From the NCBI GenBank assembly GCA_902622545.1, contig CACNQD010000001.1:1-64000 (forward strand): 64,000 bases of DNA, written 5' to 3'. Shown here in pieces: positions 39,632 through 46,878 of this stretch (positions are counted from its first letter, which is position 1; each line of letters begins with the position of its first letter). The stretch is from an uncultured Pelagibacteraceae bacterium. GTDB taxonomy: Bacteria; Pseudomonadota; Alphaproteobacteria; Pelagibacterales; Pelagibacteraceae. Position numbers and translations under genes: made by a program. The notes beneath the pieces are model-generated. The model did not search any database. It was not told where the DNA came from and worked only from the letters and a program-made list of their open reading frames with translations.

Positions 39632-40676
39632 TTAAATTTATAGCTGCTCCAACTGCTGGTATTTTTTTATTTGATCCAAGATCGCCAATAAGATTATCGT
39701 ATCTTCCACCATTAATAATGTTAATTTTATTCGATTTAATTTTAACATCAATTTTGAAGACTAGGCCTGTGTAATATTCTAATTGCCTTCCAAAAGATGC
39801 TGAATATTTTATATTTAATCTTGAAAATTTATTTTTAGAGATCGGAAAATAATTTTTTTCTACTCTTAAATTAATTTTATGTTTTTTAAAAAAAAAGTTT
39901 AATTTGTTAAATGCTTCGCTGATTGGACAATCAATTTTAAGAAATTCTTTTATTATTTTTGCAACATTTTTTCCTTTTTGAGGTCTTCTAGGATCATTTA
40001 TCTTATTATTAAATCTGTTTAGAATCTCATCAAGTGATCTACCAGCAATAATTTTTGATTGTTTTTGTTTAAGCATTGCTTCATATTTTTTTTTATCTAT
40101 TTCAACAATTGTTGGATCTACGTCAGAATTAGTTTCTAGTCTTTTTAACAAATCATTAAAATATTTTTCTCTCCAAAAATGTCTTTGAAGTCTCAATTTC
40201 CATCTTTTAGGGATATCCAATTTAGTCAATAGAAGTTTAAATATTTCGATATTTCCGATAGTCAAAATACCCGATGAAAATTTTACTTTTGATAATGATT
40301 TAACTGCTGTGTTAATAATTTTTTTATCATCATCTTTTTCCTTGTTAGAGCCAATAATTTCAAAACCAATTTGATTTCTTATTATACTATCTGATATCTT
40401 TTGAGTTTTTCTAAAAGCTTGTCCACTGTAAAATACTTTTTTAGATGTTTTATTTTTCTCATTTAAATACTTTAGACATGATGCAATTGTTAAGTCTGGT
40501 CTAAGACAAATTTCATTACCCTTCTGATCATTAAAAGAAAAAATAAAACGTCTAAATGACTCACCAGATCTTTCAACAATATGTTTCGTTTCTATTACAG
40601 TATCTAAATTAATATACTTAAAATCCTCTGACTTTATTAATTTTAATATATTTTCAGATAATTTTTTTGATTTCAT
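39624..40676 (-). CDS. hisZ: ATP phosphoribosyltransferase regulatory subunit HisZ
   Basis: Histidyl-tRNA-synthetase paralogue that activates short HisG and mediates feedback by histidine. It keeps the class II synthetase frame (ERSGESFRRFIFSF, CLRPDLTIASCLKYL, GGRYDNLIGDLG) but not the full catalytic set. The start at 40676 (MKSKKLSENILKL) is used; another ATG at 40691 is in frame and overlaps hisS further. Length 350 residues. It is encoded between the synthetase hisS and hisG. Confidence 0.9.
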   Translation of the reverse strand: MKSKKLSENILKLIKSEDFKYINLDTVIETKHIVERSGESFRRFIFSFNDQKGNEICLRPDLTIASCLKYLNEKNKTSKKVFYSGQAFRKTQKISDSIIRNQIGFEIIGSNKEKDDDKKIINTAVKSLSKVKFSSGILTIGNIEIFKLLLTKLDIPKRWKLRLQRHFWREKYFNDLLKRLETNSDVDPTIVEIDKKKYEAMLKQKQSKIIAGRSLDEILNRFNNKINDPRRPQKGKNVAKIIKEFLKIDCPISEAFNKLNFFFKKHKINLRVEKNYFPISKNKFSRLNIKYSASFGRQLEYYTGLVFKIDVKIKSNKINIINGGRYDNLIGDLGSNKKIPAVGAAINLND

Positions 40677-41988
40677 TAACAATGTTCTCATCTTTAATAT
40701 TAGTTTCCTTCCCAGTTCTAAGATCTTTTATTTTGACCTCTGAGTTTTTAATTTCTTCTTCACCAGCAAAAATTACACAAGGACAGCCAATTTTATTAGC
40801 ATACTCCATTTGTTTTTTTATTTTTCCCTCACCAGGGTAAATCTCTGAACTAATATTTTCCGATCTAAGTTTCTTTAGTAATTCTATATATTTTTTCATA
40901 TTGTTTTGATCAAAGACACTAATCATTACAGGGCGCGTAACTTTTAAATCAAATTCTTTTTTTTGCATTAGTGCAAACACAAGTCTATCTATACCTACTG
41001 ATATGCCAGTTGCTGGATAATCAAGATTACCAAAATTGCTCACTAAATTGTCGTATCTACCTCCACCTCCTATTGATCCAAATTGAATAACTTGTCCTTT
41101 TAAATTTTTTACATTGAAATTTAGATTAACTTCAAATATTGGGCCTGTGTAGTACTCTAAACCTCTTATTACCGAAGGATCGAACTTATAGTTGTCAAAT
41201 TTATAATCTTTAAAGATTTTTATTATTTGTTTTAAATCCTCACTCTGAGGTGAATTAACATTCAATGAGCTTTCTATAGCTTTTATTTGTTCAACGTCTA
41301 ATTCTGCCCCTTTTGTGTAATCTCCTGATTTATCTTTTCTACCTTCACCTAGTAATTTTTTAACTTCTGTCCACCCTAACCTATCTATTTTATCTAAAGC
41401 TCGAAGAATTATAGAAATTTTTTCCTGCGACTGAATTTCTAGTTTTTTGAATAATTCATCCGTAATTTTCCTAGATGATATTTTGACTGTGTAGTCATCT
41501 TTAGTTAAGCCACAATTTTCTAAAATTTCTGATATCATTACACATAGTTCTGCATCTGCCTGCAAATTTTTTGTACCTACGTAATCAGCATCGAACTGAA
41601 GAAACTCTCTATATCTTCCTGGTCCAGGTTTTTCATTCCTCCACACTGTACCTAATTGATAGCGTTTAAAAGGTTTCGGTATTTCATTAAAATTTTTTGC
41701 AACATATCTCGCCAAGGGTGCTGTTAAATCATAACGTAAAGACAACCACCTATTTTCGTCTTTAAAAGAAAATACACCTTCTCCAGGTCTTTCTTTATCA
41801 GGTAAAAATTTACCTATACTTTCAGTATATTCAAAACTTGGGGTTTCAAGATATTGAAAGCCATATTTAACCATTACCTCTTTAATCTTTGAAATTATGA
41901 AGTCTCTGATTAAAAGTTCTTTTTCTTTTCTATCTTCAAAACCTGAAGGTAATTCCTTTAGAGGTTTTATTTTTTTTTGTTTTTCCAT
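40654..41988 (-). CDS. hisS: Histidyl-tRNA synthetase
   Basis: Class II synthetase, 444 residues from the ATG at 41988 (MEKQKKIKPLKELPSGF). An upstream extension to 42054 would read through tRNA-His and is rejected. Landmarks are SLRYDLTAPLARYVA (motif 2 region), FDADYVG, the histidine-specific GLEYYTGPIFEV, and GGGGRYDNLV, plus the C-terminal anticodon domain. It starts 4 bases after the 3' CCA of tRNA-His, its own substrate, and precedes hisZ and hisG. Confidence 0.96.
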   Translation of the reverse strand: MEKQKKIKPLKELPSGFEDRKEKELLIRDFIISKIKEVMVKYGFQYLETPSFEYTESIGKFLPDKERPGEGVFSFKDENRWLSLRYDLTAPLARYVAKNFNEIPKPFKRYQLGTVWRNEKPGPGRYREFLQFDADYVGTKNLQADAELCVMISEILENCGLTKDDYTVKISSRKITDELFKKLEIQSQEKISIILRALDKIDRLGWTEVKKLLGEGRKDKSGDYTKGAELDVEQIKAIESSLNVNSPQSEDLKQIIKIFKDYKFDNYKFDPSVIRGLEYYTGPIFEVNLNFNVKNLKGQVIQFGSIGGGGRYDNLVSNFGNLDYPATGISVGIDRLVFALMQKKEFDLKVTRPVMISVFDQNNMKKYIELLKKLRSENISSEIYPGEGKIKKQMEYANKIGCPCVIFAGEEEIKNSEVKIKDLRTGKETNIKDENIVNEIKKII

Positions 41989-41992
41989 TTTT

Positions 41993-42069
41993 TGGTACAC
42001 GGGGACAGATTCGAACTGTCGACCTTCGGTTCCACAAACCGCTGCTCTAACCAACTGAGCTACCCGTGC
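41993..42069 (-). tRNA. tRNA-His (GTG)
   Basis: Cloverleaf on the minus strand: acceptor GCACGGG pairs with CCCGUGU, the D-loop keeps G18G19 (AGUUGGUUA), the anticodon loop is UUGUGGA with GUG, and the T-loop is UUCGAAU. CCA is encoded. The discriminator is A73 and the base before position 1 is A, so the G-1:C73 pair that marks most bacterial tRNA-His is absent; the first pair is G1-U72. This resembles the derived tRNA-His known in parts of the Alphaproteobacteria. Confidence 0.95.
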
Positions 42070-42620: not shown

Positions 42621-42695
42621 TGGTGGCCTTGGTAAGAATCGCACTTACGACACATACCTTTTCAGGGTACTGCTCTACTACTGAGCTACAAGGCC
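42621..42695 (-). tRNA. tRNA-Phe (GAA) with altered D-loop/T-loop contact
   Basis: Minus-strand cloverleaf: acceptor GGCCUUG with CAAGGCC, D-stem GCUC/GAGC, anticodon stem GUACC/GGUAU with loop CUGAAAA (anticodon GAA), T-stem GUAAG/CUUAC, CCA encoded. The D-loop is AGUAGUA, so position 18 is A instead of G, and the T-loop is UGCGAUU, so position 55 is G instead of U. All stems are well paired, which argues against a decayed gene. The gene ends one base from the infA stop codon and is probably co-transcribed with it. Confidence 0.9.
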
Positions 42696-46802: not shown

Positions 46803-46878
46803 GCCCCTTTAACTCAGGTAGTAGAGTATTTCCATGGTAAGGAAAAAGTCGTCCGTGCAAGTCGGGCAAGGGGCACCA
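46803..46878 (+). tRNA. tRNA-Thr (GGT) with altered D-loop/T-loop contact
   Basis: Plus-strand cloverleaf: acceptor GCCCCUU with AAGGGGC, D-stem ACUC/GAGU, anticodon stem UUUCC/GGAAA with loop AUGGUAA (anticodon GGU), T-stem GUCCG/CGGGC, CCA encoded. The D-loop is AGGUAGUA, giving A18 next to G19, and the T-loop is UGCAAGU, giving G55. These are the same two replacements as in tRNA-Phe of this window, in a tRNA of otherwise normal shape. Confidence 0.9.

Follow-up and report, generated by a model that had tools for sequence, protein, structure and literature searches.

A probable A18-G55 elbow pair in natural tRNAs of Pelagibacteraceae, with the same pair of letters in some viral tRNAs

The G18-psi55 contact of tRNA is regarded as near-universal. 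As described in PMC4810234 and PMC7912444, residue 18 of the canonical elbow stacks in the T-loop and pairs with residue 55, and the outer face consists of G19-C56; the 18-55 pair is reportedly needed for translocation on the ribosome (Pan et al. 2006, cited in PMC4810234). The tRNAs described here share with the canonical G18-psi55/G19-C56/T54-A58 elbow the 7-base T-loop, G19, C56, R57, a purine at position 18 and, usually, U54/A58, but they carry A18 together with G55, and some relatives also replace U54-A58 and G19-C56. The closest precedent reportedly comes from laboratory selection of suppressor tRNAs, in which Doyon, Zagryadskaya, Chen and Steinberg (J Mol Biol 2004) are said to have recognized a "specific purine trap": in clones with U54-A58, purine 18 was G when residue 55 was U, and A when residue 55 was G. 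The A18-G55 pair is the same in both cases; however, the trap was a product of laboratory selection, whereas the SAR11 occurrences are natural, recurrent and chromosomal. Suppressor tRNAs with G54-G58 and G54-A58 have reportedly been obtained as well (Zagryadskaya et al., Nucleic Acids Res 2003), whereas G54/G58 occurs naturally in SAR11 tRNA-Thr(GGT) and is combined with A18/G55 in one tRNA-His (L212).

Our literature search found nothing on a natural A18-G55 pair by title or abstract, which is weak evidence of absence, since subscription papers lay mostly outside it. The accessible portions of a study of SAR11 tRNA signatures (PMC3937112) contain nothing on A18, G18, the elbow, the T-loop or the D-loop; those of a review of T-loop modification (PMC7912444) contain nothing on A18 or G55, those of a review of non-canonical tRNAs (PMC7609411) nothing on A18, G55 or U55, and those of PMC9142559 offer no help on natural A18/G55. 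A eukaryotic study did describe natural joint variation of tertiary pairs, at 15/48 and 54/58; its abstract calls this unseen in bacteria and does not name 18/55.

The stretch of DNA analysed here (the window) comprises 64,000 nucleotides from an uncultured bacterium of the Pelagibacteraceae (SAR11). The tRNA-Thr(GGT) gene at 46803-46878 (forward strand) was called by ARAGORN and scored 53 bits with Rfam RF00005, whose family cut-off is 29 bits, although it was absent from one Rfam listing. It has an encoded CCA and a class I cloverleaf with intact stems and a 7-base T-loop, and its RF00005 alignment marks no non-standard pair. Its D-loop, AGGTAGTA (46816-46823, forward strand), places A18 at 46820 and G19 at 46821, and its T-loop, TGCAAGT (46856-46862, forward strand), places T54 at 46856, G55 at 46857, C56 at 46858 and A58 at 46860. 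The tRNA-Phe(GAA) gene at 42621-42695 (reverse strand; ARAGORN, and 68 bits with Rfam) has the D-loop AGTAGTA (A18 at 42679) and the T-loop TGCGATT (G55 at 42642). The double replacement that the initial annotation had pointed out in these two tRNAs is thus real, as read from both the sequence and the predicted cloverleaf, and its remark that tRNA-His keeps G18 and U55 was also borne out: tRNA-His(GTG), found by ARAGORN and Rfam at 41993-42069 (reverse strand), provides a canonical control within the window.

A third case lies outside the window. The tRNA-Val(GAC) gene (contig C4, 192300-192374, reverse strand; coordinates derived through an offset) has the D-loop AATAGTA and the T-loop AGCGTAA, with the same two changes plus A54/U58. 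All three tRNAs therefore depart from the class I combination of G18 with U55; Thr and Phe retain both G19/C56 and U54/A58, whereas Val retains G19/C56 only. The ARAGORN census of this genome (1.15 Mb in 9 contigs, 97.7% complete) gave 32 distinct genes: 29 with G18/U55, three with A18/G55 (Phe, Thr and Val) and none with a single change. With three of 32 genes affected, the pairing is not the genome-wide feature that had been envisaged. A single gene was found for each of the anticodons Phe(GAA), Thr(GGT) and Val(GAC), the first being the sole tRNA-Phe, and they are thus unlikely to be dispensable copies. Rfam gave 34 matches over the cut-off, namely the 32 distinct genes and two apparently partial ones, a tRNA-Met (L033, G000 C2:4782-4856) and a tRNA-Asn (L034, G000 C3:253725-253775), which are perhaps integration-site remnants.

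Across all SAR11 loci then collected, ARAGORN made 532 calls, corresponding to 239 distinct tRNAs. These included 212 with G18/U55, 23 with A18/G55 (Phe 10, His 6, Val 3, Thr 3, Tyr 1) and four ambiguous ones; A18/U55 and G18/G55 were both absent. The four ambiguous sequences are tRNA-Thr with the T-loop TTAGATT, which the parser reads as T18/G19, although the natural reading is G18 followed by U19. Position 18 was placed blind to the T-loop, by a rule that favours G and then A. The association between the two positions is very strong (Fisher p ~1.5e-32 for the 239 tRNAs, with the four ambiguous rows taken as G18/U55 and shared ancestry ignored), bearing in mind that SAR11 sequences are related and such values overstate their independence. 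Some genomes were counted twice (L068/L223, L074/L258, L078/L238, L084/L240 and L087/L257 look alike, and eight genomes are present in both L172-L201 and L254-L261), so our conclusions rest on distinct sequences rather than on gene counts. In four other tRNA sets, A18/G55 was found in 3/32 (G078), 1/32 (G043), 1/32 (G009) and 2/30 genes (G040), again with no single-changed tRNA; the cases in the complete relatives are a tRNA-His in G009 and a tRNA-Tyr and a tRNA-Val in G040. We also kept 80 loci for a neighbouring Dcd gene, 22 of them from Pelagibacteraceae (including the best matches, with identity of at most 96%); the non-SAR11 loci of this set contained only four tRNAs, all canonical, and are thus a poor control.

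ARAGORN proved inadequate for this purpose. In 17 genomes (L204-L213, L215-L217, L228, L237, L241 and L243) it failed to call the tRNA-His gene next to hisS, and we therefore rescanned one locus, His-Phe-Thr, with a covariance model. The model was built without the pairs 18-55, 19-56 and 54-58, from 27 training sequences that included seven with A18/G55 and two other elbow variants. It recovered 17/17 of the missed genes, all of which have A18/G55 and either A or G at position 54, and Rfam likewise recovered all seven that were submitted to it. Over 112 stretches the rescan produced 265 matches and 100 distinct tRNAs, comprising 26 with A18/G55, four of the ambiguous Thr type and no single-changed form; one weak fragment (L194:165-220, 24 bits) was disregarded and omitted from the Fisher test of that set. 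Neither of the outcomes that would have spoken against a recurring pair was seen: positions 18 and 55 do not vary independently among the 239 distinct SAR11 tRNAs, and the change, far from being limited to one assembly, recurs in many relatives.

Viral contigs were scanned by the D-arm alone, and position 55 was read afterwards, in samples drawn from the matches listed. The A18 sample consisted of 240 stretches, 92 of which had the pattern inside a called tRNA (93 distinct tRNAs); the G18 sample consisted of 120 stretches, 108 with the pattern in a called tRNA (119 distinct), and in this sample 119/119 had U55. The rule reported for the purine trap, by which residue 55 sets residue 18, describes both data sets well: SAR11 has no single-changed form among 239, with four ambiguous, and the 93 viral A18 tRNAs, among the matches listed, divide into 84 with G55, 8 with U55 and one mis-parse. 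The 8/93 with A18/U55 indicate that G55 is not an absolute requirement for A18. Among other tRNAs on the viral control stretches, A18/G55 was found in 4/455, so the pair is uncommon there, whereas contigs chosen for A18 can be rich in it (13/17 called tRNAs in L477, 10/18 in L480). When the first 200 stretches chosen for A18 were parsed for their 874 other tRNAs, 8 were assigned A18/U55, 2 G18/G55 and 9 G18/C55, although some of these have long or unusual D-loops that make the placement uncertain.

Two further observations concern viral contigs. The arrays in L477, L480, L491 and L545 contain many tRNAs of differing identity with A18/G55, and contig L393 contains four tRNAs of differing identity with the T-loop TCCGA, that is, G18 with C55, another possible elbow pair. 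A phage source for the Thr and Phe genes of the window was considered and rejected: among 50,697 phage records, 4 and 8 gave matches, at only 73-79%.

With the joint change seen in five isoacceptors and many relatives, and viral A18 accompanied by G55 in 84/93, the idea of a recurring alternative 18-55 pair held up. Judging from the sequences, the joint change at 18 and 55 is compensatory covariation for such a pair, and our main reading, to which we assign a probability of roughly 0.8, is that a putative A18-G55 elbow pair replaces G18-U55 in working tRNAs. The purine at 18 would keep its slot in the T-loop, flanked by residue 57 and the 54-58 pair, with A18 pairing with G55 rather than with U55. 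G19-C56 and U54-A58, which are usually retained, would preserve the L-shape and the exposed G19-C56 face. We infer that the pair originated by compensatory double substitution within isoacceptors, that in some cases tRNA alleles were probably replaced later, and that a SAR11 elbow with few or no modifications may make the swap tolerable.

The neighbouring contacts vary as well. At 54/58, the 100 distinct rescan tRNAs had U/A in 81, G/G in 12, A/U in 6 and U/U in one; at 19/56 all had G/C apart from the four tRNA-Thr that carry A56 and are read as U19-A56, a single tRNA-His and the disregarded fragment. That tRNA-His (L243:6864-6934, forward strand) combines A18/G55, U19/A56 and A54/U58, so that three contacts are swapped together. 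Genes for tRNA-His with a common D-arm and T-stem have either A/U (L204 type) or G/G (L212) at 54/58. By sequence, a reverse-Hoogsteen 54-58 pair could form with U54/A58 in the Thr and Phe tRNAs, and with matched letters at these positions elsewhere. The tertiary contacts 18-55, 19-56 and 54-58 thus each vary in matched ways. A broader interpretation, which we regard as less likely than not, is that three coupled contacts of the elbow can be re-coded, namely 18-55 (G-U or A-G), 19-56 (G-C or U-A) and 54-58 (U-A, A-U or G-G), that SAR11 would move among these states, as far as the fully swapped tRNA-His of L243, and that some viruses may carry whole tRNA sets in the second code, possibly escaping readers of the canonical elbow. 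Its context in SAR11 is that no known position-54 enzyme was found and that TruB is missing in part of the order.

The initial annotation had linked the pair to changes in modification enzymes such as TruB or TrmH. Part of this stood. A TruB_N domain was found in 30/138 genomes of the order: in 22/25 of the sister family, in 8/8 of genera g5, g9 and g12, and in 0/105 of genera g1 (that of this genome), g2 and g4, the genera of the 105 being taken from a separate genome list, considered the same set from its equal size and handles; of the 108 genomes lacking a match, 20 are listed. In the class sample, 231/241 genomes had the domain. The gene order infB-rbfA-rpsO-pnp lacks truB in this genome (the gap between rbfA and rpsO lies at about 251000 of G000 contig C1, L738) and in four others of g1, g2 and g4, whereas in G009 truB sits between rbfA and rpsO. 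This genome has three SpoU-family genes, whose closest families are RlmB, TrmL and TrmJ; of these matches, RlmB alone scores above its curated cut-off. Two of the three were scored by the TrmH model far below its cut-off, and TrmH was not found there. TrmFO exceeded its cut-off in 0/12 SAR11 genomes tried versus 7/14 controls, the weak SAR11 matches lying in frames of 622-824 residues, most of which were taken as MnmG, and the TrmA family matched in 0/12 SAR11 genomes versus 12/14 controls. By these profile searches, this genome seems to lack the known enzymes that act on positions 18, 54 and 55.

It could be argued from this that loss of TruB, and with it of pseudouridine at 55, drove the swap by weakening G18-U55 until A18-G55 was equal or better. 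Both the distribution of TruB_N across genera and the truB gap in the five genomes examined agree with this proposal, as do the counts in the 82 genomes with locus stretches: tRNA-Phe with A18/G55 was found in 36/57 TruB-minus versus 0/10 TruB-plus genomes, and tRNA-His with A18/G55 (including the 17 from the covariance model) in 20/70 versus 2/12. The difference in Phe, however, may reflect one event, whole tRNA sets do not differ clearly (7/96 genes in three TruB-minus genomes, 3/62 in two TruB-plus genomes), and A18/G55 is found in viral tRNAs too. Moreover, genomes that keep TruB carry the pair (tRNA-His in G009 and G022, tRNA-Tyr and tRNA-Val in G040). These relatives rule out a strict TruB cause and tell us that TruB loss is not required; a driving role for the loss is improbable, and support for the proposed enzyme tie is mixed.

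A selective explanation, to which we give equally long odds, is that altered elbows or tRNA bodies evade a factor that recognizes them, such as a tRNA-cleaving toxin, a defence nuclease or a host modification enzyme. The way in which Thr(GGT) and His bodies turn over while their locus stays fixed would fit such an escape, as would the association of divergent HisRS types with different tRNA-His bodies and the richness of certain viral contigs in A18/G55, L477 among them; however, the rich contigs had been selected by their A18 D-arm, and the control contigs, as given above, had the pair in 4/455 of their other tRNAs.

The turnover itself can be described at two places. The tRNA-Thr(GGT) beside dcd (L066-L087, L202-L258) differs strongly in its body between close relatives at the same locus, which amounts to allele replacement or exchange. 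The HisRS of this genome (encoded within window region 40654-42069) is 96-97% identical to that of three genus members and 73-79% to those of genera g2/g4 and of two genus members, but 37-52% to those of the remaining members of its own genus that matched. All 19 genomes with stretches from the 96-97% and 73-79% groups have the canonical tRNA-His body; the 41 genomes of the 37-47% group comprise 21 with other tRNA-His bodies, 3 of the GCTC/GCTT type and 17 in which ARAGORN called none. This suggests that the hisS/tRNA-His pair has been replaced in place.

A single origin followed by remoulding would explain the recurrence differently: A18/G55 would have appeared in one tRNA, such as tRNA-Phe, and duplicated genes that changed anticodon would have carried it into Thr, Val, His and Tyr. 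The tRNA-Thr of this genome and the tRNA-Phe of L066 do have identical D- and T-loops, and the Val of L335 and the His of L243 are slightly closer to an A18/G55 tRNA from another isoacceptor. However, when these two classes only were compared, 28/30 A18/G55 sequences were nearer to a G18/U55 tRNA of their own isoacceptor than to an A18/G55 tRNA of another, and the tRNA-Thr of the window is 79% identical to the Thr(GGT) of another genus, whereas no Phe compared with it exceeded 67%. Similarity thus largely refutes remoulding from a single A18/G55 tRNA, which we consider very unlikely. Near-minimal cases are the tRNA-Tyr of G040, 90% identical to a G18/U55 tRNA-Tyr and differing from it at both loop positions, and two tRNA-His, from G009 and L218, which share 86% and 85% identity, respectively, with G18/U55 tRNA-His.

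A tree built from HisD, MurA and Dcd at 77 loci requires at least 4 changes of state for His, 7 for Phe and 7 for Thr, counts that use the ARAGORN calls (with 17 tRNA-His missed) and, for Thr, include the ambiguous state. At many of these changes the entire tRNA body was replaced as well, at an unchanged locus, and hence not all are double substitutions in place. Pseudogenes or assembly error, for which nothing speaks beyond the unusual letters, have next to no probability as a source of A18/G55 and are refuted by its recurrence in Pelagibacteraceae assemblies, including single-contig genomes, by the cloverleaf stems and encoded CCA of these tRNAs, and by the fact that each is the sole gene of its anticodon in this genome.

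The A18/G55 combination in natural tRNAs represents a real, natural, recurrent and compensated change of a near-universal contact, which falls outside the usual description but is of a kind reportedly anticipated by laboratory selection. It also carries a warning that tRNA finders overlook such genes, as ARAGORN did for 17 tRNA-His. The natural tRNAs of SAR11 would repeat the outcome of the functional selection reported for suppressor tRNAs, and a free-living lineage that lacks truB, builds essential tRNAs on another 18-55 pair and shows matched swaps at both 19-56 and 54-58 would offer a ready test of what the elbow requires.
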